From a virus: 20,415 nt of DNA. The notes beneath the pieces are model-generated. The model saw nothing but the letters and a program-made list of their open reading frames with translations. It was not told the DNA's origin and ran no database searches. The stretch's first letter is position 1, and each line of letters begins with the position of its first letter. The stretch spans positions 1 to 20,415 of IMG/VR virus record IMGVR_UViG_3300017762_002163; one strand, 5' to 3'. The position numbers and the translations under genes were made by a program. This document shows, one piece after another, positions 1,539 through 17,440 of this stretch.

Positions 1539-1550
1539 GGATAATACTAG

Positions 1551-1592
1551 CAGGGCTATCTCTAACTTTGACGGCCCTGTTTCTCATTTTTG
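1551..1592 (+). terminator. Probable rho-independent terminator after the BMP-type gene
   Basis: CAGGGC (1551-1556) pairs with GCCCTG (1574-1579) across a 17-base loop and is followed by the T-rich tract TTTCTCATTTTT. The stem is short and the T-tract interrupted, so partial read-through into the following membrane genes is likely. Confidence 0.6.
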
Positions 1593-1604
1593 ATAGGAAA
1601 AACG

Positions 1605-1895: not shown

Positions 1896-1903
1896 TAACT
1901 CAT

Positions 1904-2282: not shown

Positions 2283-2296
2283 AGATAGGAAAATCT

Positions 2297-3120: not shown

Positions 3121-3215
3121 ATCCACAAAAGCGTACTGTTTACATTATGCTATGGACTTGTGTCATATTTCACTTTGTGATTATACCTATCTGGATGTGG
3201 AGTCTAGGATTATAG
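3117..3215 (+). CDS. Very small single-helix membrane protein (32 aa)
   Basis: GTG start overlapping the DoxX stop (GTGA), with AGAGG about 9 bases upstream. It encodes a basic start (NPQKRTVYI) and then one long Trp/Phe/Ile-rich helix, ending in tandem stops TAG-TAA. The charge distribution suits an N-in membrane peptide. Because of its size, confidence is moderate. Overlapping reading frames in this stretch lack this pattern and were set aside. Confidence 0.5.
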   Translation: MNPQKRTVYIMLWTCVIFHFVIIPIWMWSLGL

Positions 3216-3245
3216 TAAGATATAAAAGATTTATTAAATGGTACC

Positions 3246-3365
3246 ATGTTCTTAGAAAAGACGGTAATACCATGGGCGTATGTAATATAGGTCCATGGTA
3301 TAGTCGTTATAATAGGTTTAATTGTATATGCTGGGCTTGGGCTAATTCTGGCACACACACTATAG
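3246..3365 (+). pseudogene. Small membrane ORF interrupted by an in-frame amber codon
   Basis: From ATG 3246 the frame reads 14 residues (MFLEKTVIPWAYVI), then TAG at 3288-3290, then 24 residues beginning VHG and forming a convincing glycine-rich membrane helix, then TAG at 3363-3365. The hydrophobic pattern continues smoothly across the stop, so this looks like one roughly 39-residue protein with a nonsense codon. No good ribosome site precedes the ATG. It is in the same frame as the 32-residue ORF upstream, so both could be remains of one longer gene. Alternatives are read-through, a bypass event, or a sequencing error. Confidence 0.4.
3267..3301. repeat. Perfect 9-base inverted repeat around the amber codon
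   Basis: ATACCATGG (3267-3275) is the exact reverse complement of CCATGGTAT (3293-3301), with a 17-base loop that contains the TAG at 3288-3290. In RNA it could form a hairpin presenting the stop codon in the loop. No T-run follows, so it is not a standard terminator. Confidence 0.6.
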
Positions 3366-3382
3366 ATGGTAAAAATTTATAG

Positions 3383-3411
3383 TTTACAAACGCCTCATAA
3401 TATGATATAAT
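3383..3411 (+). promoter_or_regulatory. Promoter for the DNA polymerase gene
   Basis: -35 TTTACA (3383-3388), 17-base spacer, -10 TATAAT (3406-3411). Transcription would start near 3418, a few bases before the GGAGG at 3422-3426, giving a very short leader. It is one of the best matches in the window to the T4 early promoter pattern. Confidence 0.75.
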
Positions 3412-3434
3412 AATTCCAACTGGAGGTTATTAAT

Positions 3435-6017
3435 TTGAATTCATTCTACACTTCTGTGAACCGTTATGGCAATTCTATTCTTTATCGTGGATATTCCCCT
3501 AATGGTTCGCCAATTAATCAACGTTATAAATTTAAACCAAAATTCTGGGTAGCATCTAAGGATCCAACAGAGATAAAATCCTTTGATGGTGGCAACATAA
3601 GCCCTATAGAATTTGAAAATATGCGTGAAGCTAAAGAGTTTCTTGAACAATATTCAGAAATGGATGGCGTAAAAATATATGGCACACGTAATTATATACA
3701 TCAGTTTATTACAGATAAGTTTCCTGATGATATTAAATTTAATCCAAGTAGTATAAATGTAGTAAACTTTGATATAGAGGTTGCCTCAGATGATGGATTT
3801 CCAACTCCAGATGCTGCAGCATATCCAATTATATCTATTGCTCTTAAATCCAGTAAATCTTCGATATATCAAGTATGGGGTTTAGATGATTATGATCCAT
3901 CTAAAACAGAAATTAATTTAGATGGTGGTCAGATACAGTATCATCAGTTTGACTCTGAACCAGCAATGATGGCTTCGTTTCTAACTTACTGGACTAAAAA
4001 TTATCCTGATATTATTACTGGTTGGAATACTAGATTCTTTGATGTTCCTTATCTTGTTAATCGTATTAAAATTATTGGTACGGAAGAAGCCGCTAATAAG
4101 TTATCTCCATGGAAACTTGTTAATGAAAGAAATACTACAATCATGGGTCGACCCCAGGTTAACCATGAGATTGTTGGTATTCAACAAGCAGACTATCTTG
4201 AACTGTTTAAAAAGTTTGGATATTCATATGGAACACAAGAATCATATAAACTAGATCATGTGGCCCATACTGTTCTTGGAGAAAAGAAACTTTCCTATGA
4301 AGAACATGGTAATCTCTATACATTATACAAACAAGATCATCAGAAGTTTATTGACTATAATATCAGAGATGTTCAGCTAATTGATAAGATGGATGCTAAG
4401 ATGGGTCTTATTAACTTAGCAATGACTATGGCATATAGAGCAGGTACTAATCTTTCCGAGACATTTGGTACAACATCTATCTGGGAATCAATTCTCTATC
4501 GTAGATTACTCTCAAAGAATATTGTGTCACCAGTAGAGCAGATTCAGAGAGTTGCTTATGAAAATAATTCTAATCCAAATATTATCGAGGGTGGCTATGT
4601 AAAAGATCCTCAAGTTGGAGCACACGACTGGGTAGTATCATTTGATTTAAATTCTCTGTATCCAAACATTATTGTTCAGTCTAATATATCTCCAGAGACT
4701 ATTATTCGTAACAAAACATGGAGAACATTTCAGCAAGGTGTTGATCACTATTTAAACGGAACAGATAAAGCTGATAGTGAATATTCTATCTGCGCAAGTG
4801 GAGTGCCTTTCTCGAGAGAAAAGCAAGGGGTAATTCCAGAACTTATTGTTGATTACTATTCAGAAAGAAGTGTTATCAAGAAAAAGATGTTAGATGCTAA
4901 GTCACAGTATGAAAAGACAAAATCATCGTATCTTGAAGCAGAAATAAATCAGCTAGAAAATAACCAGATGTCAATTAAGATTTTACTTAATTCTCTTTAT
5001 GGTGCTCTTGCCAATAAACATTTTAAATACTTTGATAATGCCCTAGCCGAGAGTGTAACACTTACTGGTCAGCTTTCTATTAAATGGGCAGAGCGTGCTA
5101 TTAATCAAGAGATGAATAAAATTCTTAAGACTGATGATTTTGATTATGTTATTGCTATTGATACGGATTCAGTTTATATTAATTTCGGTCCTCTTGTTTC
5201 AAAATTAAAGCCAAAAGATCCTGTAAAGGCCATTGACAAACTATGTCAAGATCATTTTGAAAAGATTATTGCTAAAGCATATGATGGTTTATATCATAGG
5301 CTTAATGGCTATACTCCACGCATGGAAATGGGTAGAGAAGTTATTGCAGATCGTGGAATATGGACTGCAAAAAAACGCTATATACTTAACGTACACAATA
5401 ACGAAGGTGTTCAATATGCGGAACCTAAACTAAAAATGATGGGTATCGAGGCTATTAAATCATCAACTCCTGAGGTAGTCCGAGATAAGTTTAAAGAAAT
5501 ATTTAAGGTTATTATTACTAGTACTGAAGCAGAAACTCGTAGATACATTAATGACTTTAAAGCAAATTTTAAATCTCTACCACCTGAAGCTGTTGCATTT
5601 CCACGTGGAGTTTCTGATATTAGTAAGTTTTCACATAAGAAAAATATCTATTGTAATTCTAATAATTCTAAACAATGGTCATCAGGCAGTCAGACAGCAA
5701 CAATAAAAACAACGCCTATTCATGTTCGTGGTGCTCTTTTGTATAATCATCATGTTAAAGATAAGGCACTAGATAAGAAGTACATTATGATACAAAACGG
5801 AGAAAAGATTAAATTTACATATATGAAGCTTCCGAATCCTATTCGTGAAAATGTAATTTCTTTTCCGGATTACTTACCCGAAGAATTAAATCTGCATAAA
5901 TATGTAGACTATGAGATGCAATTTGAAAAAACTTTTATTGAACCGCTTAATCCTATTCTTGAAGCCGTTGGTTGGTCTGTCAAGGATGTGCAAACACTGG
6001 AGGACTTTTTTGGATGA
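3435..6017 (+). CDS. 43: Family B DNA polymerase, T4 gp43-like (860 aa)
   Basis: Replicative polymerase with 3'-5' proofreading. Exonuclease motifs: NFDIEVAS (Asp113, Glu115), TGWNTRFFDVPY (about 195-206, Asp203) and YNIRDVQLID (about 308-317). Polymerase motifs: A, SFDLNSLYPNI (Asp404); B, KILLNSLYGAL (about 515-525); C, AIDTDSVYI (about 574-582). The C-terminus LEDFFG matches the T4 clamp-binding tail. It is slightly shorter than T4 gp43 (898) but looks complete and unsplit. The start is TTG at 3435, supported by GGAGG eight bases upstream; no in-frame ATG fits better. Its stop overlaps the next start (ATGA), coupling it to the phosphomannomutase-like gene. RegA and clamp-loader genes, which neighbour gp43 in T4, are absent here. 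Confidence 0.97.
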   Translation: MNSFYTSVNRYGNSILYRGYSPNGSPINQRYKFKPKFWVASKDPTEIKSFDGGNISPIEFENMREAKEFLEQYSEMDGVKIYGTRNYIHQFITDKFPDDIKFNPSSINVVNFDIEVASDDGFPTPDAAAYPIISIALKSSKSSIYQVWGLDDYDPSKTEINLDGGQIQYHQFDSEPAMMASFLTYWTKNYPDIITGWNTRFFDVPYLVNRIKIIGTEEAANKLSPWKLVNERNTTIMGRPQVNHEIVGIQQADYLELFKKFGYSYGTQESYKLDHVAHTVLGEKKLSYEEHGNLYTLYKQDHQKFIDYNIRDVQLIDKMDAKMGLINLAMTMAYRAGTNLSETFGTTSIWESILYRRLLSKNIVSPVEQIQRVAYENNSNPNIIEGGYVKDPQVGAHDWVVSFDLNSLYPNIIVQSNISPETIIRNKTWRTFQQGVDHYLNGTDKADSEYSICASGVPFSREKQGVIPELIVDYYSERSVIKKKMLDAKSQYEKTKSSYLEAEINQLENNQMSIKILLNSLYGALANKHFKYFDNALAESVTLTGQLSIKWAERAINQEMNKILKTDDFDYVIAIDTDSVYINFGPLVSKLKPKDPVKAIDKLCQDHFEKIIAKAYDGLYHRLNGYTPRMEMGREVIADRGIWTAKKRYILNVHNNEGVQYAEPKLKMMGIEAIKSSTPEVVRDKFKEIFKVIITSTEAETRRYINDFKANFKSLPPEAVAFPRGVSDISKFSHKKNIYCNSNNSKQWSSGSQTATIKTTPIHVRGALLYNHHVKDKALDKKYIMIQNGEKIKFTYMKLPNPIRENVISFPDYLPEELNLHKYVDYEMQFEKTFIEPLNPILEAVGWSVKDVQTLEDFFG

Positions 6018-6724
6018 ATTATATATTTGACGTAGACGGGACTTTAACACCAAGCCGTATGCGGATAGATAAAGAATTTAAGGAATTCTTTTTAGAATTT
6101 ATAAAGAAAAATAATGTTTATCTTGCTACAGGATCAGATTATATAAAAACAGTAGAACAACTTGGAATAGAAATCTGTGAGAATGTTACTAAGTGTTATA
6201 ACTGTTGTGGTAACAGCGTTTGGAAAAACGGAGAAGAAATATTTAGATCCGATTGGACGCTGTCGGACGAATTAGATAAATGGTTAAAAAAAGAACTAAA
6301 GAAAAGTAAATTTGATATAAGAACCGGTAATCATATTGAGCAAAGACCCGGCTTGGTAAATTTTAGCATTGTTGGTAGAAATGCATCCTTTGAAGAAAGG
6401 TTTATCTACACTCAATGGGATGAACAGGTAGAAGAAAGAAGAACAATTGCTAGAGAATTTAATCAACAGTTTGCATATTACAAAGCTCAAGTAGCAGGTG
6501 AGACAGGTCTTGATATTATGCCTATAGGATATGATAAGAGACAAATTGCTGATGATATTGAGGGACCAATAATATTCTTTGGTGATAAAATGGCTCATGG
6601 TGGTAATGATTATCCATTAGCTGAAGTAATACAGTATAGAGAAAATTCTTGGAATTATGAAGTAAAGTCTTGGAAAGACACCCATAAAATATTAATTAGT
6701 TTATCATATAATGGTTTACAATAA
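6014..6724 (+). CDS. Eukaryotic-type phosphomannomutase-like HAD enzyme (236 aa)
   Basis: HAD-superfamily IIB protein resembling PMM1/PMM2, which interconvert mannose 6-phosphate and mannose 1-phosphate on the way to GDP-mannose. Visible features: N-terminal FDVDGTLTPSR with nucleophile Asp6 and Asp8; TGSDY at about 39-43; the cap-domain stretch RPGLVNFSIVGR (about 111-122); GLDIMPIGYDKRQ (about 165-177); and the metal-binding FFGDKMAHGGNDYPL (about 188-202). Length is close to PMM2 (246). Bacteria normally use an unrelated ManB/AlgC enzyme, so this type in a phage is notable. I chose ATG 6014, overlapping the polymerase stop, because it begins directly at the HAD strand. A promoter for the next gene lies within its last codons. 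Confidence 0.82.
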   Translation: MNYIFDVDGTLTPSRMRIDKEFKEFFLEFIKKNNVYLATGSDYIKTVEQLGIEICENVTKCYNCCGNSVWKNGEEIFRSDWTLSDELDKWLKKELKKSKFDIRTGNHIEQRPGLVNFSIVGRNASFEERFIYTQWDEQVEERRTIAREFNQQFAYYKAQVAGETGLDIMPIGYDKRQIADDIEGPIIFFGDKMAHGGNDYPLAEVIQYRENSWNYEVKSWKDTHKILISLSYNGLQ

Positions 6725-6743
6725 GTCAAATATAGTGTATAAT
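6715..6743 (+). promoter_or_regulatory. Promoter for the cupin gene
   Basis: -35 TTTACA (6715-6720), 17-base spacer, -10 TATAAT (6738-6743), overlapping the last codons of the phosphomannomutase-like gene. Predicted start is near 6750, followed at once by AGGAG (6754-6758) and ATG 6765. Confidence 0.75.
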
Positions 6744-6764
6744 AATACTATAGAGGAGAAAAAA

Positions 6765-7124
6765 ATGAAAGCTGGTAAAGTATGGGGAACAACTGAACTG
6801 ATTGAAGCTAATGGTGCTTTAGAATTTCATCGTATTGAAATGGAAGAAGGTGGTGTATGCTCTAAGCACTTACATCGCTATAAGTGGAATGGTTTTTATG
6901 TAGAATCTGGAAAGATGCTTATTCGAACATGGCAACGTGATTACGATTTAGTTGATGTTACTATTCTTGATGAAGGCGATTATCATAAAGTTAAACCTGG
7001 TCTTTATCATCAATTTGAATGTCTTCAAGAAGGCGTAGCTTACGAGCTATATTGGGCAGAGTTTAATCATAATGATATTGAACGTGAAAGTGTAGGATAT
7101 CATATGGATGATGTAGATGACTGA
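6765..7124 (+). CDS. Single-domain cupin (119 aa)
   Basis: A small beta-barrel protein with the first cupin motif as CSKHLHRYKWNGFYVESG: metal ligands His35 and His37 and a glutamate at 47. The second motif includes His82 (PGLYHQFE). The metal site therefore looks complete. Such stand-alone cupins include sugar-phosphate isomerases (type II phosphomannose isomerase-like) and sugar-nucleotide epimerases/isomerases. Its place right after a phosphomannomutase-like gene favours a mannose-phosphate role, but this is inference. ATG 6765 is supported by AGGAG with a 6-base gap and by its own promoter; an in-frame ATG at 6711 lies upstream of the promoter and was not used. It ends in an 8-base overlap (ATGACTGA) with the next gene. 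Confidence 0.75.
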   Translation: MKAGKVWGTTELIEANGALEFHRIEMEEGGVCSKHLHRYKWNGFYVESGKMLIRTWQRDYDLVDVTILDEGDYHKVKPGLYHQFECLQEGVAYELYWAEFNHNDIERESVGYHMDDVDD

Positions 7125-7281
7125 TTCTTTTTCTGATGTAACAAGAGTAGAAGTTATTGATAATAATGGTCGATCATATACTAAAAATTGGGTAGATAGT
7201 GTAGAAATACAACTTCAAGATGACGGAAAAACTCTTAAGTTATTTGTACGCTATGATGATGAGGAAATATCAGATGACTGA
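7117..7281 (+). CDS. Small acidic unknown protein (54 aa)
   Basis: ATG 7117 lies in an ATGACTGA junction with the cupin gene, and its stop lies in a second, identical junction with the following gene. The peptide (MTDSFSDVTRVEVIDNNG at the start, alternating beta-like patterns, acidic end DDEEISDD) looks like a small beta-strand protein. I do not recognise it. The matched overlaps at both ends argue that it is a real coupled gene. Confidence 0.62.
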   Translation: MTDSFSDVTRVEVIDNNGRSYTKNWVDSVEIQLQDDGKTLKLFVRYDDEEISDD

Positions 7282-7561
7282 GTATGTAGTATTAACAGCA
7301 ATTCAACAATTTAGAACACGTTATGTGGTCCCAATAGAAGATATGGAAGACTGTGATCCTGAAACATTTATTAAAGATTCTGTTACTTTTGGCGAAGTAA
7401 AAGAGTTTAGCCAATTAGATTTAAAAGAAAATATAATCGATGTTCAAATATATGATGAGAATAATCTTTTAGATTTATTTGACAAAGATAATGATTATCT
7501 TTCTGGATGGACTAAAGAACAAAAAATAAAATGGATTAGAAATTGGGAAGAAGGACTATGA
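7274..7561 (+). CDS. Unknown phage protein (95 aa)
   Basis: Starts at ATG 7274 inside an 8-base overlap with the previous gene. A longer frame from 7220 exists, but its extra residues lie over the upstream gene. The protein begins MTEYVVLTAIQQFRTRYVVP, has an acidic middle and ends in a helix (TKEQKIKWIRNWEEG). No known motif, signal peptide or membrane segment. Its stop overlaps the next start by ATGA. Function unknown; context is nucleotide and sugar metabolism. Confidence 0.68.
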   Translation: MTEYVVLTAIQQFRTRYVVPIEDMEDCDPETFIKDSVTFGEVKEFSQLDLKENIIDVQIYDENNLLDLFDKDNDYLSGWTKEQKIKWIRNWEEGL

Positions 7562-7971
7562 GAGTAGGATTAACTGCTAGCACATTTGATTTATTGCATG
7601 CAGGTCACATAATGATGTTAAGAGAGGCTAAGTCGCAATGCGATTGGCTTATTGCTGCTTTACAAGTAGATCCTAGCTATGATCGAAAAGAAAAAAATTT
7701 TCCTATTCAAACTATTGTCGAAAGACAAGCACAGCTTGAAGCAGTAAAATATGTTGATGAAGTTATTATATATTGTACAGAGGCGGATTTACTTGATATA
7801 ATTAATATGTATCCAATTAATGTTAGAATACTAGGTGAAGAATATAGAACGCAAAATTTTACAGGTAAAGATGAATGTCGTAATAGAGGCATTGACTTGT
7901 ATTTTAATAAGCGTGATCATAGATTTAGTTCAAGTGGATTAAGAAATCGTGTTTGTGACAATCATAAATAA
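7558..7971 (+). CDS. Cytidylyltransferase-like nucleotidyltransferase (137 aa)
   Basis: HxGH-type nucleotidyltransferase of the TagD/RfaE-C/PCYT group. The N-terminal nucleotide-binding motif is GLTASTFDLLHAGHIMML (HAGH at 14-17). A later KYVDEVIIY strand and the C-terminal RFSSSGLRNR segment, corresponding to the family's S-S/T-x-x-R motif, are present. Length matches glycerol-3-phosphate cytidylyltransferase. These enzymes attach CMP or AMP to a phosphorylated alcohol or sugar; the true substrate cannot be read from sequence. It fits the surrounding sugar-activation genes. I chose ATG 7558 because it overlaps the previous stop (ATGA) and begins right at the first strand. Confidence 0.85.
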   Translation: MRVGLTASTFDLLHAGHIMMLREAKSQCDWLIAALQVDPSYDRKEKNFPIQTIVERQAQLEAVKYVDEVIIYCTEADLLDIINMYPINVRILGEEYRTQNFTGKDECRNRGIDLYFNKRDHRFSSSGLRNRVCDNHK

Positions 7972-7974
7972 TAC

Positions 7975-8003
7975 TTTACAAATTGATCAAAATAGGATAT
8001 AAT
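7975..8003 (+). promoter_or_regulatory. Promoter giving a leaderless MazG-like transcript
   Basis: -35 TTTACA (7975-7980), 17-base spacer, -10 TATAAT (7998-8003). The ATG at 8010 lies six bases past the -10, exactly where transcription should begin, and there is no room for a ribosome site. Confidence 0.72.
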
Positions 8004-8009
8004 ATAAAA

Positions 8010-8305
8010 ATGATTTATGAAGAAAAAATTATTCAGTGGCACTATGATAGAAATCTTATTGAAGGTTCTACAGATAAAGATCAGTATATGAAACTTATTC
8101 AAGAAATGGGTGAACTATCAGATAATATCTGTAAGGGTAAAGATATTAGAGATGACTGCGGAGATATTATGGTTGTTCTTATTAATATCATGGAAAGAAA
8201 TAATATCAGTCTTGAAGAATGTCTTGAAGTAGCCTATAACGATATTAAGGACCGTAAAGGTAAGATGGTAGATGGTGTCTTCGTAAAAGAAGGTGATAGT
8301 TAATG
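8010..8305 (+). CDS. MazG-like nucleotide pyrophosphohydrolase (97 aa)
   Basis: All-alpha NTP pyrophosphohydrolase fold. The metal-binding pattern E-x-x-E is in KLIQEMGELSDNI (Glu32, Glu35) and D-x-x-x-D in RDDCGDIMVVL (Asp48, Asp52). The end of the domain has KDRKGKMVDGVFVKE, typical of phage MazG proteins. Marine phages often carry MazG; proposed roles are removing non-canonical dNTPs or lowering ppGpp, neither shown here. I chose ATG 8010; an in-frame TTG at 7983 lies upstream of the predicted transcript start. The stop is TAA at 8301-8303; the next gene starts with the ATG at 8303, sharing one base. Confidence 0.78.
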
Positions 8306-9238
8306 CAACCAAAATATCCAATTTATATTATCTCTAAGGGTAGAGCCGACTCACGGCTTACCTCTAAAACTCTTGATGAGATTAGAGTACCATATAAAAT
8401 TGTTATTGAAGAAAGTGAGTTTGATGATTATAATAAAGGCATTTCAGCAGATAAGATTCTAACTCTACCTCCCGGATTTAGAGAAAATCCAAAGTATGCA
8501 ATTCCAGATAATAAAGGTAGAATCGGCGGTTCTATTCCAGCACGCAACTTTGTCTGGGATCATTCTATTAAAGAAGGTCATGAGCGTCATTGGATTATGG
8601 ATGATAATATCAAACATTTCTATAGACTACATAAAAACCAAAAGACTAAAGTGACATCTGGTACAATAATTAGATTGTGTGAAGACTTTACAGATCGCTA
8701 TAAAAATGTTAAAATGTCTGGTATGAACTATCAGTATTTTGCTCCAGCTTCTCAGAAGAAAAGACCATACACACTTAATACTAGAATTTATTCCTGTATT
8801 CTATTATCTAATGATATTAAACATAGATGGCGTGGTAAATATAATGAAGATACCGATCTGAGTTTAAATATTCTAAAAGATGATTGGTGTACAATTCTAT
8901 TTAATGCCTTCTTGTGTGGTAAGATTACAACTCTTGTTATGGGTGGTGGTAATACAGATAATGTGTATGTGGATGGAGATAATCGTTTACAATTTGCACA
9001 AGCACTTGTGGAACAACACCCAGACTTGGTTAAAGTTGTTCAAAGATATAATAGATGGCATCACCATGTTGATTATAGCCCATTTAAAAAGAATAAACTT
9101 ATTTACCGAGACGATTATGTGGTTAAAGGTGGTACTAATGAGTATGGTATGAAACTACATCCATTAACTATGGACCAATATAAAAAAGCAACAACAGAAT
9201 TTGGAAATGCGGAGAACCCCTATTATGAGCAAACCTAA
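8303..9238 (+). CDS. TET-associated-type (TAGT-like) glycosyltransferase (311 aa)
   Basis: Resembles the TAGT family of GT-A-like glycosyltransferases, known from phage DNA-hypermodification loci where they act on hydroxymethylated pyrimidines. Visible signatures: PIYIISKGRADSRLT at the N-terminus; GGSIPARNFVWDHSI (about 75-89); RHWIMDDNIKHFYRLH with the nucleotide-sugar/metal DDN at 100-102; LNTRIYSCIL (about 158-167); RGKYNEDTDLSL (about 177-188); and a His-rich end RWHHHVDY. Full length. No TET/JBP oxygenase is visible in this window, so the acceptor base is unknown. The gene overlaps the next by 14 bases. A TTTACA/TAAAAT pair inside it near 8687 is probably chance. Confidence 0.82.
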   Translation: MQPKYPIYIISKGRADSRLTSKTLDEIRVPYKIVIEESEFDDYNKGISADKILTLPPGFRENPKYAIPDNKGRIGGSIPARNFVWDHSIKEGHERHWIMDDNIKHFYRLHKNQKTKVTSGTIIRLCEDFTDRYKNVKMSGMNYQYFAPASQKKRPYTLNTRIYSCILLSNDIKHRWRGKYNEDTDLSLNILKDDWCTILFNAFLCGKITTLVMGGGNTDNVYVDGDNRLQFAQALVEQHPDLVKVVQRYNRWHHHVDYSPFKKNKLIYRDDYVVKGGTNEYGMKLHPLTMDQYKKATTEFGNAENPYYEQT

Positions 9239-9506
9239 AGGTGCTAACTTATTTGTATTAGATGGACAAGAAGACGATCTCGACCCTATGGGCTGGGATG
9301 ATATGCCAGAATTTGAACAAGAAAATCGTGAAGATTATGCTGCTATTGTGATGCGATTTAGAACAGAAGACGATCTAAAAGAATTTGCACAAAAGATTGG
9401 TCAACCAAATCTTACTAGAAAATCACGTGGTACGTTCTACCCAGCTGTTGATTTTAATGAAGCTAATCTTCTACGTTGGATGGATGAAGATCAAATACAG
9501 AGTTGA
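9225..9506 (+). CDS. Small acidic phage protein following TAGT (93 aa)
   Basis: ATG 9225 with GGAGA at 9211-9215 upstream; a longer frame from 9201 lies mostly inside the previous gene. The N-terminal 40 residues are acidic and probably disordered (GQEDDLDPMGWDDMPEFEQE). The second half is a compact alpha/beta unit (AAIVMRFRTEDDLKEFAQKI then a basic RKSRGTFYP) resembling a ferredoxin-like small domain common in phage hypothetical proteins. The 14-base overlap with the glycosyltransferase gene suggests coupled production and perhaps a shared task. No catalytic motif is visible. Confidence 0.7.
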   Translation: MSKPKGANLFVLDGQEDDLDPMGWDDMPEFEQENREDYAAIVMRFRTEDDLKEFAQKIGQPNLTRKSRGTFYPAVDFNEANLLRWMDEDQIQS

Positions 9507-9508
9507 TT

Positions 9509-10447
9509 ATGGAAGTTTCTGCAACATTCTTTAAATCTATATATGATAATAAAACTCATAAGAACATGAGTTTTTCTGGCTTTCCTCAGTTTGAGGAATT
9601 TCTATATAAACTATCTGAAAGAAAATTAGAAGATAAAAAAGCTGCTCAGCTCATATCACCAGCAACTTATATTAAAGACACTACAAGAGCAAATAAAAAT
9701 GTAGTTGACTGGGCTGGATGGGCAGCTATGGATGTAGATGACCATGAGTTTAAAGGAGATTTAAAAGATGATCTTATTCGTATCTATGGTAAGTACTATT
9801 TTGTTTGCTATAGTACTGCTAGCAGCAGAGAAAGTTTACCAAAGTTTCGTTTGGTCTTCCCACTTACAGAAAGAGTTAGAGGAGATAATATCAGACATTT
9901 TTGGTACGCACTCAACACAGAACTCCAAGCAATCGGCGATGCGCAAACTAAGGATCTATCACGAATGTATTATATCCCTGGTTCGTACTCTGGCGCTTTC
10001 AACTTTATTTTTACTAATACTGGCGGTAGCTATATAAATCCTCGAGAGTTAATGGCGAGCCATTCATATCAAGAAAAAAAGACTGGTACATTCTTAGATA
10101 GATTACCAACAGAGATGCAAAAATCTATCATAGAATATCGTAAGAATAAAATGGAGAATACTGGTGTTAGTTGGTCTAACTATGAAGATTGTCCATTCGT
10201 GAATAAAAATCTTATCAGAGATTTTAAGAATATAGCATATGTTGATAATACTGGAAGATATGCTATGGTTTATAAGATTATGGTTTCAATAGCAAGTAGT
10301 GCAATTAAGAGACAATATCCTATAAATACGTTTGAGATTGTAGAACTAATTAAGCAACTAGATGCTGATACAGCTAAGAGATATGAGAATAGACCTCTTA
10401 ATGTAGAAGCTGATCGTGCTATAGAATATGCATACAGAAATATTTAA
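9509..10447 (+). CDS. AEP/PrimPol-like primase-family protein (312 aa)
   Basis: The N-terminal half has the order of motifs of archaeo-eukaryotic primase-type phage proteins: AMDVDDHE (Asp75, Asp77) as metal site; YSTASSRESLPKFRLVFPL (about 101-119) as motif II followed by the usual 'fRlvfPL' strand; and KDLSRMYYIPG (about 148-158) as motif III. In related proteins motif II usually carries a histidine (S-H) where this has Ser-Ser, so activity is uncertain. The C-terminal third is helical and unrecognised. I chose ATG 9509 over an in-frame TTG at 9503. It could be the primase partner of the gp41-like helicase; no DnaG-type gp61 is present in the window. Fold assignment is by eye. Confidence 0.6.
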   Translation: MEVSATFFKSIYDNKTHKNMSFSGFPQFEEFLYKLSERKLEDKKAAQLISPATYIKDTTRANKNVVDWAGWAAMDVDDHEFKGDLKDDLIRIYGKYYFVCYSTASSRESLPKFRLVFPLTERVRGDNIRHFWYALNTELQAIGDAQTKDLSRMYYIPGSYSGAFNFIFTNTGGSYINPRELMASHSYQEKKTGTFLDRLPTEMQKSIIEYRKNKMENTGVSWSNYEDCPFVNKNLIRDFKNIAYVDNTGRYAMVYKIMVSIASSAIKRQYPINTFEIVELIKQLDADTAKRYENRPLNVEADRAIEYAYRNI

Positions 10448-10465
10448 AAAAGTTCATTTTAGGGG

Positions 10466-10494
10466 TTTACAAGCTATTCGTTTTATGCTATATT
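10466..10494 (+). promoter_or_regulatory. Promoter for the 93-aa unknown gene
   Basis: -35 TTTACA (10466-10471), 17-base spacer, -10 TATATT (10489-10494). It sits in a block TTTAGGGGTTTACAA that recurs before the next gene. The predicted leader is about 23 bases and contains GGAG. Confidence 0.7.
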
Positions 10495-10523
10495 GTAAGA
10501 GTAAATAGAATCGGAGACCTCTT

Positions 10524-10805
10524 ATGGCTTATTATACTTACACTAAAGATCCTATTGGTTGCTTTGTTGAGAAAGATACCGGCAATTACTTTGAGTATTC
10601 ACTTAACGACGAACCTATTTCAGGTTTTTCCGAAGACTTTCCCCATAAAGTTTGGGTAGGCGGCGGCGGTGTATGCGGCATGACGGGCTATAGATTTGCT
10701 CACGTTAAGAAGACCGTTGCTGTAATTGTTGTAGACGAAGACGAATTTGGTCTTCCCGTTACTGAAAAGTGGTATGTTAAATATCATAAACAATATGCAC
10801 TTTAG
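10524..10805 (+). CDS. Unknown protein with Gly-rich loop (93 aa)
   Basis: Starts MAYYTYTKDPIGCFVEKD, has a run of four glycines (WVGGGGVCGMTGYRF, about residues 44-58) and a mostly beta pattern after it. There is no membrane segment or signal peptide. It has its own promoter and a GGAG site near 10512. The stop (TAG) overlaps the -35 region block of the next promoter, so the two are separate but adjacent units. The middle of the gene is richer in G+C than its surroundings. Family not recognised. Confidence 0.75.
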   Translation: MAYYTYTKDPIGCFVEKDTGNYFEYSLNDEPISGFSEDFPHKVWVGGGGVCGMTGYRFAHVKKTVAVIVVDEDEFGLPVTEKWYVKYHKQYAL

Positions 10806-10808
10806 GGG

Positions 10809-10837
10809 TTTACAAACTCCTAAAAATATGGTATGTT
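10809..10837 (+). promoter_or_regulatory. Promoter for the GIY-YIG-like gene
   Basis: -35 TTTACA (10809-10814), 17-base spacer, -10 TATGTT (10832-10837). It is preceded by the same TTTAGGGG block as the promoter at 10466. The leader, about 26 bases, contains GGAAAGGA before ATG 10870. Confidence 0.65.
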
Positions 10838-10869
10838 GATTATATAAAGAGAATCGGAAAGGAACTAAA

Positions 10870-11379
10870 ATGCCTAACGTTGCTACAAATCTTACAAAAG
10901 TTGGAACTTACCTCGGATATTTTACAATTCAAGAGCATACAACAAACGTAAATAATAATAAGCCTTCTCGTACTTATGAAAAGCTTGTATTTACAAAAGC
11001 CGATGGTATGGAGACTCGTGATTTTAAAGCTATGGGTGATATTGTATACGGTATGTATGTTAACGGCAATCTTGTTAAGATTGGGAAAGCGGGTTCAACA
11101 AACGGTTGGGCTGGACGTATCGGTACGTACGGTGTTGATCCAAAAGGCGAAGCAACTAATCGTAAAATTATTACACATCTAAAAGAAGATTTTACATATG
11201 AAACACGTGTAGAAGTATATGGGATTTCAGTTCCTCGTATTCACTCAGAATATTTCTGCCCAGTAACGCGTGAAACAGTTTCTATTGAACTTCCACAGAA
11301 CCATCAAGTAGAAACTCATTTAACTACTGAAGCAGAAGCAGAAGGTACCGATCTTATGTTTTGTACACAGAAAGTTTAG
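10870..11379 (+). CDS. GIY-YIG-like domain protein (169 aa)
   Basis: A central segment reads DIVYGMYVNGNLVKIGKAGSTNGW (split here: VYGMY at about 59-63 in the place of GIY, VKIGKA at about 69-74 in the place of YIG) and is followed by an arginine (Arg83, AGRIGTYG) where the family's catalytic Arg sits. A glutamate-rich C-terminal segment (VETHLTTEAEAEG, about 147-159) could supply the metal-binding Glu. This suggests a GIY-YIG/T5orf172-like nuclease fold, possibly for host DNA breakdown or DNA editing. The first 50 residues are unassigned. The gene has its own promoter and a good ribosome site (AAGGA). The resemblance is suggestive, not conclusive. Confidence 0.6.
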   Translation: MPNVATNLTKVGTYLGYFTIQEHTTNVNNNKPSRTYEKLVFTKADGMETRDFKAMGDIVYGMYVNGNLVKIGKAGSTNGWAGRIGTYGVDPKGEATNRKIITHLKEDFTYETRVEVYGISVPRIHSEYFCPVTRETVSIELPQNHQVETHLTTEAEAEGTDLMFCTQKV

Positions 11380-11383
11380 TATA

Positions 11384-12565
11384 ATGAAAATATTCATAAT
11401 TCCATATACATTTTATACTTATTTTTCTTTTAAAGAAAGAGTAAGTGGTGTAGATGAAAGTATGTTAAAACAAATAGAAGTTTTAAGAGAAAGAGGTCAT
11501 GAAGTAAAAGCATATACTGTTTTTGGTAATCTACATGAACATTTAAATGAAATTTATTGTTATGATTATAAAGTTCCTGAAATAGGAATAAAATCATATG
11601 TAAAAGATTCCAAAAATAGAAAAAAAATTATAACGGACATTTTAGTTAAAATAAAAAAATTTAAACCTGATGTAATTTTATCCAATGCATATTACCAAAG
11701 AGGGTTTTATGATGAATTACAGAAAATAAATATACCTATAATTTATATGTGTCATGCAGCACCCGGATTTTTATCCGATCTGATGTCTGCAAATAAATTA
11801 TCAAATTTTAGTGAAAAACATTCTATTTGTGCAATGTCGGAATATCATGCGCAAAATATAAAACAATTCTATAATAGAAAAAGAAAAAACTGGGATTTTG
11901 AAAAAGAAATAAATGTAGACTCGATAGTATTTTCTTCATATAGTAATAAAGAAAAAGTATTAAATTCTGATGGTATTATTAGACATGTCTCTGCTGCAAA
12001 CAAAGATAAGCAAACTTTTTTAATACACGACTTTTTAAATAAAACAGATTTTAAAACTGAAGTATATACCACTTTAAACCATATGACTAAAGATAATGCA
12101 AATTTAAACTCTTACGTTGAAAAGGCATTTAAAAATTTTAATACTTCAAATAGATCAATCCATCTTGATGTTGAACATAAAACTATTATGGAAAATATAG
12201 GAAAATCTTCATGTTGTTTTGTCGGGTTAGCGTACTATGATAGTTTCACAATTACATCACTTGAAGCACTTTCTCGTGGTGTGCCAATTATCGTGAAAGG
12301 GATAAAAAAATTACATCCCGCAAAAGAAATGGTGGAACCAGAATATCAAAAATTTGTTCATATATATGAAAATAAAAAAGATTTTATTGATAAGGTAAAA
12401 GAGTTTTCAAATATTACAATAGAACAAAGAAAACAAATTGCAAGTTCCTGTTATAAAATTACTTCAAAGAATATGTATGGAGATAGTTTAGAAAAAACAT
12501 TAAATAATTCCATACTTAAATTTAAAGATAAAAGTGATTTACACTTAGAAAATTTTATGATATAA
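11384..12565 (+). CDS. GT-B glycosyltransferase (393 aa)
   Basis: Two Rossmann-like halves. The N-terminal half starts MKIFIIPYTFYTYF with GVDESMLKQIEVLRERGHEV, the usual helix of GT4-type enzymes. The C-terminal half has the donor-binding E-x7-E-like region in DSFTITSLEALSRGVPIIV (about 286-304). It should transfer a sugar from a nucleotide donor; acceptor unknown. Its sequence is even more A-rich than its neighbours (long AAA and ATA stretches, very Lys/Asn/Ile-rich protein), consistent with a separate origin. No strong ribosome site or promoter is visible at ATG 11384, five bases after the previous stop. The next gene's promoter lies in its last codons. Confidence 0.82.
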   Translation: MKIFIIPYTFYTYFSFKERVSGVDESMLKQIEVLRERGHEVKAYTVFGNLHEHLNEIYCYDYKVPEIGIKSYVKDSKNRKKIITDILVKIKKFKPDVILSNAYYQRGFYDELQKINIPIIYMCHAAPGFLSDLMSANKLSNFSEKHSICAMSEYHAQNIKQFYNRKRKNWDFEKEINVDSIVFSSYSNKEKVLNSDGIIRHVSAANKDKQTFLIHDFLNKTDFKTEVYTTLNHMTKDNANLNSYVEKAFKNFNTSNRSIHLDVEHKTIMENIGKSSCCFVGLAYYDSFTITSLEALSRGVPIIVKGIKKLHPAKEMVEPEYQKFVHIYENKKDFIDKVKEFSNITIEQRKQIASSCYKITSKNMYGDSLEKTLNNSILKFKDKSDLHLENFMI

Positions 12566-12566
12566 T
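12538..12566 (+). promoter_or_regulatory. Promoter for the epimerase gene
   Basis: -35 TTTACA (12538-12543), 17-base spacer, -10 TATAAT (12561-12566), overlapping the end of the GT-B gene. AAAAGGAGAA follows before ATG 12592. Confidence 0.75.
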
Positions 12567-12591
12567 AGTAACTATAAAAGGAGAATAAAAT

Positions 12592-13548
12592 ATGTCACAT
12601 ATAACAGTAACTGGCGGTGCTGGTTTTATTGCTTACCACCTTATACAAAAGCTAGTTGACGAAGGTCATACTGTAACAGCATTTGATAACTTTAATGATT
12701 ACTATGATGTTGATCTAAAAGAAGATAGAGCAAACAATTTAAAGAATCTTGGTGTTGAAGTAACTCGACTTGATCTAAAATCAAAAGAACCTTTACGTTT
12801 TTTTCTTGCTGCTCATAAACCCGATGCCGTTATTCATTTAGCTGCATATGCAGGTGTACGACACTCGTTAGAAGAACCACAAACATATATTGATAATAAT
12901 GTTACTGGTACTCAAAATCTAATTGAAGCTTGTGTGGATGCTAATGTTGAAAACGTAATATATGCATCAACATCATGTACTATGGCTGGTAATGAATTAC
13001 CTTGGAAAGAAGATGAGAAATGTGGTTATCAATTAAATCCATATGGCTATACTAAATTTACTAATGAAGCACAGTTTATGTCTAGTTCAATTATCAGGAC
13101 AGTTGGTCTTCGCTTCTTTACTGTTTATGGGCCTTGGGGTCGCCCTGATATGGCACTCTTTGATTTTACTAAAAATATTGTTGCTGGTAAGGAAATTGAA
13201 CTATTTAACTATGGCAATATGATTCGTGACTTTACATATATTGATGATATTGTAAACGGTATTGTTATTGTTTTAAATCAATCTTTATCTCAAACTGAAG
13301 AATTTAATGAAATATATAACATTGGTTATGGAGAACAAGTAAAGCTAGTTGATTTCGTTGATCACATTGAAAATAATCTTGACCGTAAAGCTAAACGTAA
13401 ACTTGTACCAATACACCCAGCTGATACTCAAGCTACTTGGTCTGATACAACTAAACTACAAAAACTTGGTTATAAACCTACAGTTTCAATTGCCGAAGGT
13501 GTGGAAAAATTTATTTCTTGGTATAAACTATATTATGGAGTAAACTAA
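12592..13548 (+). CDS. NAD-dependent epimerase, UDP-glucuronate 4-epimerase-like (318 aa)
   Basis: Extended short-chain dehydrogenase. NAD site TGGAGFIA at 7-14 (GxxGxxA form), acidic FDN at 31-33, catalytic Ser/Thr in ASTSCT (125-130) and YxxxK as YGYTK (151-155). The segment RFFTVYGPWGRPDMALF (about 174-190) and IRDFTYIDDIVNG are characteristic of UDP-glucuronate 4-epimerases rather than GalE. It would turn UDP-glucuronate into UDP-galacturonate, and the UDP-glucose dehydrogenase next door would make its substrate. Full length, with its own promoter and ribosome site. The stop overlaps the next small ORF (TAATG). Exact substrate remains inference. Confidence 0.87.
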   Translation: MSHITVTGGAGFIAYHLIQKLVDEGHTVTAFDNFNDYYDVDLKEDRANNLKNLGVEVTRLDLKSKEPLRFFLAAHKPDAVIHLAAYAGVRHSLEEPQTYIDNNVTGTQNLIEACVDANVENVIYASTSCTMAGNELPWKEDEKCGYQLNPYGYTKFTNEAQFMSSSIIRTVGLRFFTVYGPWGRPDMALFDFTKNIVAGKEIELFNYGNMIRDFTYIDDIVNGIVIVLNQSLSQTEEFNEIYNIGYGEQVKLVDFVDHIENNLDRKAKRKLVPIHPADTQATWSDTTKLQKLGYKPTVSIAEGVEKFISWYKLYYGVN

Positions 13549-13673
13549 TGCTTTACAAAACCGTTGCATTATATTATAATATATCAGTAGAAGAATTAAT
13601 TAATAGGCTTGTAAATAATGGCGAGCCTCTTATATGCAAATATTACAAGGAAGTTTATCCCGATGGGTTCTAA
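13548..13673 (+). CDS. Possible small protein (41 aa) overlapping a promoter
   Basis: ATG 13548 overlaps the epimerase stop by one base (TAATG). The peptide has a helix-like core (ISVEELINRLVNNGE) and ends KEVYPDGF, overlapping the next gene by 11 bases. Its early codons also contain a full TTTACA/TATAAT promoter. The coding pattern looks real, but a promoter in the same bases makes it possible that the stretch is mainly regulatory. Confidence 0.42.
   Translation: MLYKTVALYYNISVEELINRLVNNGEPLICKYYKEVYPDGF
13552..13580 (+). promoter_or_regulatory. Promoter for the UDP-glucose dehydrogenase gene
   Basis: -35 TTTACA (13552-13557), 17-base spacer, -10 TATAAT (13575-13580). The transcript would begin near 13587, about 76 bases before the chosen start at 13663. 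It lies inside the small ORF that begins at 13548. Confidence 0.65.
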
Positions 13674-14502
13674 ATTAAAGATTGCAATTGTTGGACATGG
13701 TTTTGTCGGTAAAGCTATTGATCACGGTTTTAATGATTATAACTGTACCAAAATCATCATTGATCCTAAATATGGAAATAGTGTCGATAGTATTAAATCG
13801 CTAGATGTAGATGTTTCTTTTGTGGCTGTTCCAACCCCTATGGGTAAAGATGGTGAGATTGATTCATCTATTGTGATAGAAACTGTAAAAAAACTTAAAC
13901 AACGGCGTAGTGGCATTATAGTAATTAAATCCACAGTAACACCTGATATTATTAAATCTCTTACTAGAGGAGGTGGTACAAGTTCAAGAGTTGTCTATAA
14001 CCCAGAATTCCTAACAGAAATTAATGCTAATTCTGATTTTATAAATCCAGATATGCATGTATTTGGTGGACATAAAGAAACCACACTACGATTAGAAGAA
14101 ATTTATAAAGAATATAGTTTATGTAAACCGTGTCCAGCTTTTCATATGTCTGCTACAGAAGCCAGCTTTGTGAAGTATGGTCTTAACTGTTTTCTTGCTA
14201 CCAAAGTTTTGTGGTTTAATCAATTCTATGATGTGGTAGAAAAGTTTGGTGGAAATTTCGGTCATATAGTAAATGCTATTGGTACCGATCCACGTATTGG
14301 TACATCACATACTAGAGCACCAGGCTTTGATGGTAAACGTGGCTATGGTGGTGCTTGTTTCCCAAAAGATACATCTGCATTTAACACTTTCTCTAACCAA
14401 GAGTTTAGCGTTTTAAACGAGGTTATTCGAGCAAATAATGAATATAGAAAAGAATATGAAAAAGATTCTCGTGAGCTAGAGCAAAACGTAAGCTATGCTT
14501 GA
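13663..14502 (+). CDS. Short UDP-glucose 6-dehydrogenase (279 aa)
   Basis: Oxidises UDP-glucose to UDP-glucuronate with NAD. The N-terminal Rossmann fold has KIAIVGHGFVGKAI (about 5-18); FVAVPTPMGKDGEID follows; then VIKSTVTP, YNPEFLTE, the linker helix with KYGLNCFLATKVLWFN, and the catalytic cysteine in GYGGACFPKDT (Cys232). The usual C-terminal UDP-binding domain is absent: typical enzymes have about 390-450 residues and this ends soon after NEVIRANNEYR. I chose ATG 13663 (AAGGAAG nine bases upstream) over an in-frame ATG at 13618, because the protein then begins at the first strand. Short forms exist in phages, so this is probably a natural variant and not a fragment. It pairs with the epimerase upstream. 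Confidence 0.86.
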   Translation: MGSKLKIAIVGHGFVGKAIDHGFNDYNCTKIIIDPKYGNSVDSIKSLDVDVSFVAVPTPMGKDGEIDSSIVIETVKKLKQRRSGIIVIKSTVTPDIIKSLTRGGGTSSRVVYNPEFLTEINANSDFINPDMHVFGGHKETTLRLEEIYKEYSLCKPCPAFHMSATEASFVKYGLNCFLATKVLWFNQFYDVVEKFGGNFGHIVNAIGTDPRIGTSHTRAPGFDGKRGYGGACFPKDTSAFNTFSNQEFSVLNEVIRANNEYRKEYEKDSRELEQNVSYA

Positions 14503-14644
14503 ATTATTAATATATGCTATTTGTATATATCTGATAATAATATTACTACAGATTTTATTTAAACCACTAATTGCAATATTAGTAATTTTTATTACACTAT
14601 TTTTATTAGAAAAATATGATATTTTTTATATACATCTATTGTAA
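14495..14644 (+). CDS. Small hydrophobic membrane protein (49 aa)
   Basis: ATG 14495 overlaps the dehydrogenase stop by 8 bases. Almost the whole peptide is hydrophobic: two likely membrane helices (about residues 3-21 and 25-40) split by FKP, with an aromatic tail (EKYDIFYIHLL). Leu/Ile-rich A+T-rich DNA can give such ORFs by chance, but the overlap and even helix lengths support a real gene. The uvsX promoter overlaps its final codons. Function unknown; small phage membrane proteins include holin-like and superinfection-exclusion peptides. Confidence 0.5.
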   Translation: MLELLIYAICIYLIIILLQILFKPLIAILVIFITLFLLEKYDIFYIHLL

Positions 14645-14657
14645 TTTGGTTTATAAT
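14629..14657 (+). promoter_or_regulatory. Promoter for uvsX
   Basis: -35 TATACA (14629-14634, one change from the window consensus), 17-base spacer, -10 TATAAT (14652-14657). GAGGAG and ATG 14690 follow after a leader of about 26 bases. Confidence 0.65.
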
Positions 14658-14689
14658 ATATAAATTAATACTATACAGAGGAGTATTGT

Positions 14690-15736
14690 ATGTCAATTAT
14701 GGACAAACTCAAGAAGAATTCAAAACTATCCCACACATCGGTTCTTTCTGAGTCTAAATTTTTTACTGAAAAAGATATGGTTCCAACAGATGTCCCTATG
14801 ATTAATGTTGCACTATCTGGTTCGGTAGATGGTGGGTTAGCCCCAGGTCTTACAGTTCTTGCGGGACCTTCTAAACACTTTAAAACTTCTTTTGCCTTAC
14901 TTATGGCAGCTGCCTATTTAAAGGCATATCCAGATGCAGTAATGCTATTCTATGATTCAGAGTTTGGATCACCTCAGAGTTATTTTGAACAATTCGGTGT
15001 TGATACATCTCGTGTTCTTCATACACCAATTACTAATGTTGAAGAATTAAAATTTGACTTAATTGGTCAACTAGAAGAATTAGATAGAAACGATAAAGTT
15101 GTGGTTGTTATTGATTCTATTGGTAACTTAGCATCAAAGAAAGAATTAGAAGACGCTAAGAATGAAAAGTCTGTAGCAGATATGTCTCGTGCAAAAGCAC
15201 TTAAAGGCTTATTCCGTATGAGTACACCATATCTTGCTATGAAGAATATTCCACTTATTGCAGTAAATCATACATATCAAGAGATTGGTTTATTTCCTAA
15301 AGCTATTGTATCTGGCGGAACTGGTATATACTATAGTGCAGATAATATTTGGATTATTGGTCGCCAACAAGATAAGAAAGGTACCGAGATTCAAGGTTAT
15401 CACTTTGTGATTAATGTGGAGAAATCACGATATGTTAAAGAAAAGTCAAAGATTCCTATTACTGTGTCTTGGGAAGGTGGTGTCAAGTCTTATTCTGGCT
15501 TGCTCGATTGTGCTCTTGCTGGTGGTTATGCTGTTAAGCCTTCCAATGGCTGGTATGCTACTGTTGATCAATCTTCTGGAGAAGTTGGACCTAAAGTTCG
15601 GTACGATGGAACTCTTGATAAGTCCTTCTGGGATCCGATCTTTGCTGAAACGGATTTTAAAGATTTCCTAAAGAAGCAATATAGCATCGGTCATCAGTCT
15701 CTTGTTGAAATGGATGAAATTGTGGTTGAAGAGTAA
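14690..15736 (+). CDS. uvsX: UvsX RecA-like recombinase (348 aa)
   Basis: T4-type strand-exchange protein acting in recombination-dependent replication and repair. The ATP-binding loop is AGPSKHFKTS (about 58-67), the T4 UvsX-like variant of the Walker A motif without the canonical GKT. Walker B is VVVVIDSIGNL (Asp142). APGLTVLAGP before the loop, NVEKSRYVKEKSKIPITVSWEGG and the acidic C-terminus EMDEIVVEE also fit. Length is near T4 UvsX (about 390), slightly short. ATG 14690 has GAGGAG upstream; an internal ATG three codons later is a weaker choice. It is followed with a one-base overlap by a small gene and then the helicase, as in T4 where gene 40 lies between uvsX and 41. Confidence 0.95.
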   Translation: MSIMDKLKKNSKLSHTSVLSESKFFTEKDMVPTDVPMINVALSGSVDGGLAPGLTVLAGPSKHFKTSFALLMAAAYLKAYPDAVMLFYDSEFGSPQSYFEQFGVDTSRVLHTPITNVEELKFDLIGQLEELDRNDKVVVVIDSIGNLASKKELEDAKNEKSVADMSRAKALKGLFRMSTPYLAMKNIPLIAVNHTYQEIGLFPKAIVSGGTGIYYSADNIWIIGRQQDKKGTEIQGYHFVINVEKSRYVKEKSKIPITVSWEGGVKSYSGLLDCALAGGYAVKPSNGWYATVDQSSGEVGPKVRYDGTLDKSFWDPIFAETDFKDFLKKQYSIGHQSLVEMDEIVVEE

Positions 15737-16050: not shown

Positions 16051-16052
16051 AT

Positions 16053-17429: not shown

Positions 17430-17440
17430 GGAATTAAATC

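Follow-up and report, generated by a model that had tools for sequence, protein, structure and literature searches.

The window analysed here is the complete 20,415-base virus record IMGVR_UViG_3300017762_002163 (IMG/VR), which is probably a fragment of a bigger phage. Between positions 6014 and 14502 it carries an island of sugar-nucleotide and glycosyltransferase genes, which we interpret, with somewhat better than even confidence, as a uronic-acid DNA-decoration (hypermodification) island of a marine T4-like phage. An earlier reading of the sequence (the original prediction) had proposed a sugar-activation and DNA-glycosylation system attaching uronic acid or mannose-type sugars to modified bases or to a surface polymer. 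The genes it named are real, with Pfam profile matches far above chance: a phosphomannomutase-like enzyme, a cupin, a cytidylyltransferase-like enzyme (CTPt), a TET-associated glycosyltransferase (TAGT), a GT-B glycosyltransferase, a UDP-glucose dehydrogenase (UGD) and a UDP-glucuronate epimerase-like enzyme (EPI). It overlooked a MazG-like gene at 7983-8303 and, at 9503-10447, a primase-like one.

The gp43-uvsX slot and its glycosyltransferases

The island occupies the gap between the family B DNA polymerase gene gp43 (3435-6017; Pfam DNA_pol_B 2.7e-30) and the UvsX recombinase gene (14690-15736), which is followed by the gp41 helicase gene at 16053-17429 (phrog_97 1.8e-91 and phrog_19 7e-121, respectively). 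Both border genes, and all island genes for which coordinates are given below, lie on the + strand. From left to right, the island begins with the mutase, the cupin, a 113-aa protein, the cytidylyltransferase, MazG and the TAGT (TAGT1), and continues with a 101-aa protein, the primase, two small proteins, GT-B, EPI and UGD. This is the T4-type slot: according to the excerpt of PMC6024577, the same gap is the site of gene 42 and beta-gt in T4 and, in RB69, of a module thought to make an arabinose donor.

The contents of the slot vary in a telling way. A sister record, G001 (177,535 bases; completeness unproven), aligns with window positions 1-11378 at 98.2% and with 12561-20415 at 98.9%, leaving the GT-B gene unaligned; in its place, swapped at gene borders, stand an ORF of 121 aa and another TAGT (TAGT2; PF20691 2.1e-28). 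The gene directly 5' of EPI was compared across 81 loci (the window, L005, L032 and L035-L112), 55 of which were readable, having a full EPI and a readable upstream gene. In raw counts, the neighbour is a DNA alpha-glucosyltransferase (AGT) in 21, TAGT in 15, GT-B in nine and another kind of gene in ten. Many of the 81 loci are near-copies and most are fragments; when grouped at 85% UGD identity, they form 31 clusters, of which 16 have AGT or TAGT 5' of EPI, seven have neither and eight cannot be read there. L085 and L086 have a divergent TAGT at this place (PF20691 1.2e-16 and 2.7e-19), and a gp42 relative and a C5 methylase belong to both islands. The label TAGT3, set by hand for L085-L088 from gene size and position, is supported by Pfam for L085/L086 and for the records of L085/L087, and by BLAST clustering for all four. 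The neighbour counts and the exchange in the sister record together indicate that GT-B, TAGT2, AGT and TAGT occupy the same place beside EPI-UGD, and no other evidence speaks as strongly for a uronate pathway that feeds a DNA glycosyltransferase.

The same counts bear on a distinctly improbable alternative, in which the DNA is glycosylated with plain glucose, and UGD and EPI only draw UDP-glucose away from the host or belong to a different pathway. T-even DNA glucosyltransferases are indeed described as using UDP-glucose (excerpt of PMC13216743), and EPI-UGD lacks a neighbouring glycosyltransferase in ten of the 55 loci. The pair nevertheless adjoins a glycosyltransferase directly in the other 45, and the adjacency also holds where no uvsX lies within the fetched stretch, as in L072, L073, L078 and L079, where TAGT, EPI and UGD are contiguous (near them, L072 has a match to the gp45 sliding clamp).

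Relatives were drawn from two scans of IMG/VR, one for UGD relatives (80 of 83 matching loci taken) and one for TAGT (31 loci), and their locus maps present two main kinds of island, plus others. In the gp42 kind (e.g., L065, L067, L069, L080 and L084), a thymidylate-synthase-family gene, AGT, EPI, UGD, a C5 DNA methylase and uvsX stand in series, with gaps. CTPt precedes the series in all five of these loci, with only the slot's own genes intervening in L067 and L069, and KdsA and a cupin are present in some islands of this kind. L067 and L069 both carry a dCMP hydroxymethylase relative, AGT and C5 DNA methylase (in L067, PF11440 1e-31 and PF00145 1.1e-17), and the best GenBank matches of the L067 thymidylate-synthase relative, at 53-54% identity, are proteins of T4-like phages, several of them annotated as dCMP hydroxymethylase, Citrobacter phage proteins included. 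An Asp occupies the thymidylate-synthase Asn position in 20/20 distinct family sequences from UGD-bearing loci, and the GenBank phages that bear TAGT have Asn there in all five sequences that could be read (26 rows compared, one unreadable); Asp at this position presumably marks dCMP enzymes. Compared with the window, L067 and L069 are 86% identical in uvsX, 84% in gp41, 82% in the cupin, 87-89% in CTPt, 56% in EPI and 67% in UGD. In islands of the window's kind, MazG, TAGT1, the 101-aa protein and primase stand in place of gp42, AGT and C5 methylase, none of which was found there. MazG lies directly 5' of TAGT in 23/31 TAGT loci; among the remaining eight, three break off at the end of the contig, the MazG of L026 lies some 0.6 kb farther upstream, and L027-L030 have no MazG. 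Other loci (e.g., L074, L095, L099 and L100) hold EPI and UGD, or UGD alone, without an adjoining AGT or TAGT.

These maps contain further observations. Genes of the radical-SAM family, one of which also encodes a B12 domain, are present in a gp42/AGT island (L067:4982-6802) and in a gp42/TAGT island (L085:4437-6383), a hint, together with KdsA, of further base or sugar chemistry. In L031 (16165-18466), uvsX is split into two ORFs around a 228-aa ORF, resembling an interruption by an inserted element, and in L095 (4075-5211) a DruA-like protein (PF14236 3.2e-09) lies between UGD and uvsX.

The main rival explanation is synthesis of a surface or virion glycan, in which UGD and EPI would make UDP-uronates for glycosyltransferases decorating the host capsule or lipopolysaccharide (LPS), with superinfection exclusion as the outcome, or phage tail proteins. 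UDP-uronate enzymes, UGD and UDP-glucuronate epimerase among them, are common and typical in capsule pathways; GT-B is a generic GT4-like enzyme, and no base-hydroxylating enzyme was recognised in G001. Against this, the island is embedded in the replisome cluster, among the polymerase, primase and uvsX genes, and AGT, gp42 and C5 methylase surround the same EPI-UGD pair in relatives. The Pfam matches of the 30 window ORFs scanned include no flippase, no polysaccharide polymerase and no membrane glycosyltransferase, and another cluster of sugar genes lies elsewhere in G001, at about 83.7-94 kb, beside very long ORFs, putatively tail genes. The surface-polymer option of the original prediction is thereby weakened and appears unlikely, but it retains some weight. 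The second cluster of G001 (L119:3722-13973) encodes a weak GT8 match, two GT25-type genes, methyltransferases and a class I fructose-bisphosphate aldolase; elsewhere in G001 (L121:11622-12815), an ATP-type phosphoenolpyruvate carboxykinase (PF01293 1.2e-87) lies between gp46-like and gp45-like genes.

Enzymes of the island and flanking genes

The last two island genes appear to constitute a short uronate pathway. The predicted UDP-glucose 6-dehydrogenase (13618-14502; UDP-Glc to UDP-GlcA) has the Rossmann start GHGFVG, the central domain (UDPG_MGDP_dh, PF00984 3.2e-16) and the catalytic-Cys motif GYGGACFPKD, with CF.KD kept in 54/55 relatives; its N-terminal match (UDPG_MGDP_dh_N, PF03721 2.1e-17) begins at profile position 76. 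The C-terminal UDP-binding domain had no Pfam match, and alignments to Protein Data Bank (PDB) sequences stop near or soon after the Cys motif. This short form is usual among relatives: of the distinct ORFs similar to the window UGD, all 55 with a length of 250 aa or more measure 270-357 aa.

EPI (12592-13548; PF01370 6.7e-52) is by signature a UDP-glucuronate 4-epimerase, predicted to convert UDP-GlcA to UDP-GalA. Its best solved relatives are 5u4q (6e-81), 6zl6 (2.4e-43; deposited as "epimerase domain-containing protein") and MoeE5 (1.3e-33). Y151 and K155 of its YxxxK motif and R184 of its RPDMA motif (present in 46/48 EPI proteins) align with Y149, K153 and R185 of 6zl6, which we take, partly from the matching residue numbers, to be the Bacillus cereus UDP-glucuronate 4-epimerase. 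In the excerpt of PMC12338863, Arg185 of the B. cereus enzyme is described as holding the galacturonate carboxylate, and disturbing this end converts the epimerase to a primitive UDP-xylose synthase. Because EPI keeps the carboxylate-holding arginine, epimerisation would be favoured over decarboxylation, pointing to UDP-glucuronate/galacturonate rather than a pentose. This bears on a second DNA-directed alternative, pentose DNA as in RB69 and Thanatos, in which UDP-glucuronate is decarboxylated to UDP-xylose or UDP-arabinose and the pentose is placed on hydroxycytosine. The island shares its genome slot with the RB69 module, Thanatos is described as bearing a pentose on cytosine, and UDP-GlcA is a known precursor of UDP-xylose (excerpt of PMC6024577), but the epimerase signature argues otherwise and none of the 48 PDB sequences matching EPI at E <=1e-20 is named UDP-xylose synthase, leaving pentose DNA with little probability.

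The HAD-type mutase (6014-6724; PF03332 2.6e-26) is of the eukaryotic PMM type and would convert hexose-6-phosphate to hexose-1-phosphate. Its closest solved structure is the phosphomannomutase 5ue7 (1.1e-30), but it also resembles the alpha-phosphoglucomutase 4bnd (1.1e-08), so glucose-1-phosphate is a possible product besides mannose-1-phosphate. A mannose pathway was considered and not adopted, because UGD matches GDP-mannose dehydrogenase (3.4e-18) less well than UDP-glucose dehydrogenases (4a7p, 2.8e-27) and no GDP-mannose pyrophosphorylase is among the Pfam matches of the window ORFs scanned. Hence the "mannose-type" sugar of the original prediction finds little support, whereas its uronate branch has strong comparative support from the slot, the neighbours of EPI-UGD in relatives and the glycosyltransferase exchange 5' of EPI. 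The EPI arginine, the UGD Cys motif and the likeness of the mutase to both enzymes make UDP-GlcA and UDP-GalA the likely sugar donors.

TAGT1 (8303-9238; PF20691 1.7e-42) scores 146.2 bits against a curated family cut-off of 27.5. Its AlphaFold2 model (pLDDT 82.8) is a confident GT-A fold that resembles GT-A / UDP-sugar glycosyltransferases with Z-scores of 12-14 (up to 14.3), and D100 and D101, the acidic pair expected of GT-A enzymes, are invariant across 15 aligned TAGT proteins. Foldseek E-values against PDB are weak (best 5.7e-04); a sequence search of PDB found no relative, and the fold search returned generic GT-A enzymes. Matches in BFVD, a library of viral protein models, are TAGT-named proteins and a Klebsiella phage beta-glucosyl-HMC-alpha-glucosyl-transferase. 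Transfer of a sugar to modified DNA is its predicted function. The enzyme in the exchangeable slot, GT-B (11384-12565), is GT4-like (Glycos_transf_1, PF00534 2.5e-06, 27.6 bits against a cut-off of 26.4).

From these data we infer the reactions, the donor, DNA as the acceptor and the base as follows. The mutase would supply hexose-1-phosphate, from which a host pyrophosphorylase would make UDP-glucose; the short UGD would oxidise this to UDP-glucuronate, and EPI would turn part of it into UDP-galacturonate. TAGT1 and the slot glycosyltransferase (GT-B in the window, TAGT2 in the sister phage and AGT in cousins) would then attach a sugar or disaccharide that contains uronic acid to a modified pyrimidine, with 5-hydroxymethyl- or 5-hydroxy-cytosine as the likeliest base, while MazG may trim the dNTP pool. 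A more specific version is a tentative possibility that we consider doubtful: acidic sugars (glucuronic or galacturonic acid) are carried on a pyrimidine hydroxylated outside the gp42/5-hodCMP-synthase and TET/JBP families, and the outer glycosyltransferases (GT-B, TAGT2) are swapped as cassettes, giving DNA "serotypes". An anionic uronic acid would give DNA more charge and bulk and could alter how restriction enzymes, base-sensing defences and CRISPR recognise it. In a 2026 survey, 288/753 genomes came from phages whose TAGT stands alone, and the use of the enzyme in them was left open (excerpt of PMC13216743). In the lineage described here, TAGT goes together with a UDP-uronate pathway encoded by the phage itself and with a glycosyltransferase slot that AGT fills in cousins bearing gp42; a sugar, enzymes and a test substrate can thus be named.

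Several further island proteins accompany these enzymes. The small cupin (6711-7124) matches Cupin_2 at 6.6e-06 (26.2 bits, slightly below the cut-off of 27.2) and is 76-82% identical to cupins of islands with a gp42-like gene (L065, L067, L069, L082 and L107). The cytidylyltransferase-like protein (7543-7971), of the HxGH family (PF01467, CTP_transf_like, 3.9e-11), resembles TagD and ethanolamine-phosphate enzymes in the PDB comparison (3elb 7.1e-20; 1coz 1.2e-11) and is 64-89% identical to copies from other islands. The MazG-like nucleotide pyrophosphohydrolase directly 5' of TAGT1 is recognised by phrog_1992 (8.4e-39) and phrog_715 (1.6e-35), with PF03819 below cut-off (0.0013), and the primase-like protein, a replisome gene within the island, by phrog_9765 (DNA primase, 1.8e-52). 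The 113-aa protein (7220-7561), which has no assigned function and only a DUF7671 match below cut-off (0.016), is kept in the close relatives L004, L006, L007, L009, L017, L018 and L034. The 101-aa protein after TAGT1 (9201-9506) is co-conserved with TAGT in T4-like loci, and a 169-aa protein (10870-11379; only phrog_1111, 0.0068) is conserved in TAGT islands, including L021, L022, L023 and L025.

To the left of the island lie, in order, genes for a PnrA lipoprotein, cytochrome oxidase subunit IV, plastocyanin and gp43; to its right lie uvsX, a 104-aa protein, gp41 and the flavin-dependent ThyX (18125-18814). The stretch 470-3120 forms a host-like set related to respiration, comprising the PnrA-type lipoprotein, plastocyanin/azurin, subunit IV of an aa3 cytochrome oxidase (PF07835 4e-05) and, below cut-off, a weak match to DoxX. 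The window gp43 is closest to the polymerase of phage C48C1 (53.6%), followed by cyanophages (~45-46%). The phage is marine and T4-like, and its PnrA, 79% identical to PnrA of a Planktomarina metagenome-assembled genome (MAG; top of 47 loci), suggests a marine Roseobacter/Planktomarina-type host.

Search for an acceptor-making enzyme

The absence of a recognised acceptor-making enzyme is the main weakness of the DNA-decoration reading, and several other observations also weigh against it. Six-frame searches of the whole G001 record found no match to PF00303, PF12851, PF13640, PF00145 or PF11440, so no such enzyme was recognised in this record, whose completeness is unproven. A gp42-type profile had no significant match in the window, in G001 or in TAGT1-bearing loci. 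The top solved match of EPI, 5u4q, is deposited as a dTDP-glucose 4,6-dehydratase; UGD occurs without EPI in L092 and L100-L104; and EPI has a neighbour of another kind in the ten loci counted above, to which the capsule association of UDP-uronate enzymes may be added. As for GT-B, the idea that it is an AGT relative was rejected (hhalign probability 0.2), and its AlphaFold model (pLDDT 44) is unusable.

The individual searches were as follows. Pfam scans of 96 of the 207 called G001 ORFs found no hydroxylase family, the other ORFs being structural, near-copies of window genes, short, or crossing cut points. PF00303 matched 1/15 and 14/24 records, but no IMG/VR record with a TAGT1 island like the window's, and had no match in two TAGT-bearing phage records of 47 kb. 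PF13640 matched 2/19 records, both of the gp42 kind. PF12851 (Tet_JBP) matched only C48C1 among 39 records, and G001 had no match in the search that detected C48C1; a second PF12851 search matched no record at all and so, by itself, shows no absence. AGT (PF11440) was found neither in G001 nor among the window Pfam matches, and TAGT stands in for it (beta-gt was not searched for in G001). The original prediction had observed no TET/JBP oxygenase or hydroxymethylase in the window, and the scanned window ORFs likewise have no TET/JBP or classical thymidylate-synthase-family match. ThyX, which bears what we take to be its family motif, RHRxxSxxxxSxR, was considered as a hydroxymethylase and not adopted; gp42-bearing cousins carry ThyX too.

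The DNA-glycosylation proposal draws strong comparative support from the T4 42/beta-gt slot, from EPI-UGD beside AGT, dCMP hydroxymethylase and C5 methylase in relatives, and from the TAGT/AGT/GT-B exchange, but no acceptor enzyme was found. As a case against itself, it had named a genome lacking any pyrimidine-hydroxylating enzyme together with a clear surface-glycan role; the 177-kb sister record has no recognisable pyrimidine hydroxylase, but no surface-glycan role is evident for the island genes. This absence is not decisive, because the T4-like Krischvirus SAP is described as having hydroxymethylcytosine and gentiobiosyl-methylcytosine although its genus lacks synthase homologues (excerpt of PMC13390438); an absent synthase homologue is thus not proof of unmodified DNA. 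The missing hydroxylase may parallel this unexplained case.

Comparison with known systems

Among known systems, RB69 (Mosigvirus, arabinosyl-hydroxycytosine) also has a sugar-nucleotide module between the polymerase and uvsX genes. Mosigvirus and Thanatos (pentosyl-cytosine) differ, as far as the excerpted sources describe them, in having a thymidylate-synthase-family gene (in Mosigvirus, a 5-hydroxy-dCMP synthase), and Mosigvirus in having isomerase, epimerase, kinase and NTP-transferase genes where the window has a uronate pathway. A synthase of the RB69 type was not found by PF00303 in G001 or by the gp42-type profile in the window and G001.

Bacillus phage SP-15 offers a precedent for uronate in DNA. 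Its DNA was shown chemically to carry phosphoglucuronate, and its cluster shares UDP-glucose dehydrogenase, phosphomannomutase and glycosyltransferases with the window island (excerpt of PMC5977210). Unlike the modification proposed here, that of SP-15 is described as phosphoglucuronylated, glucosylated dihydroxypentyluracil, with a dihydroxypentyl group and a phosphodiester as the links by which uracil is modified; SP-15 also has its own uridylyltransferase and hmdU synthase, and no TAGT or epimerase is among the genes listed in the excerpt. Literature searches on glucuronate in phage DNA found only SP-15 and RB69 papers, with uronate on DNA only in SP-15; nothing came up for UDP-glucose dehydrogenase, LPS and epimerase in cyanophages, and for phage C48C1 only an unrelated paper. 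A term search of the main text of the MetaGPA paper (PMC8670742) found neither "dehydrogenase" nor "epimerase".

The TET/JBP-linked TAGT loci share the TAGT family, which is named after that link, and the window's relative C48C1 has EPI-UGD in the slot and TET/JBP elsewhere in its genome. They differ from the window island in that G001 has no TET/JBP match and C48C1 no PF20691 match. In C48C1 (OQ984149; L124:584-4031), the TET/JBP-domain gene is followed by a 344-aa protein without a Pfam match and then by a protein that, by reading of its sequence alone, resembles UDP-galactopyranose mutase, and the genome has a gene annotated as a Nol-like carbamoyltransferase; this region possibly makes another novel DNA sugar.

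The island is filed as a member of neither the gp42 class nor the TET/JBP class, because their defining genes were sought and not found. With hydroxymethylcytosine glycosylation in T4, T2 and T6 (gp42, alpha-gt, beta-gt, TAGT) it shares the location by gp43 and uvsX and the TAGT family, the T2/T6 TAGT being described as transferring glucose to cytosine already alpha-glucosylated in DNA (excerpt of PMC13216743); cousin islands have gp42 and AGT in the same slot. It differs from the T-even systems in that neither gp42 nor AGT was found in the window or G001, in the MazG beside its TAGT and in its own UDP-uronate pathway (UGD and EPI). Judged by location, content and glycosyltransferase exchange, the island probably functions in the manner of the T4-type islands that coat DNA with sugar, while supplying its own uronic acid.

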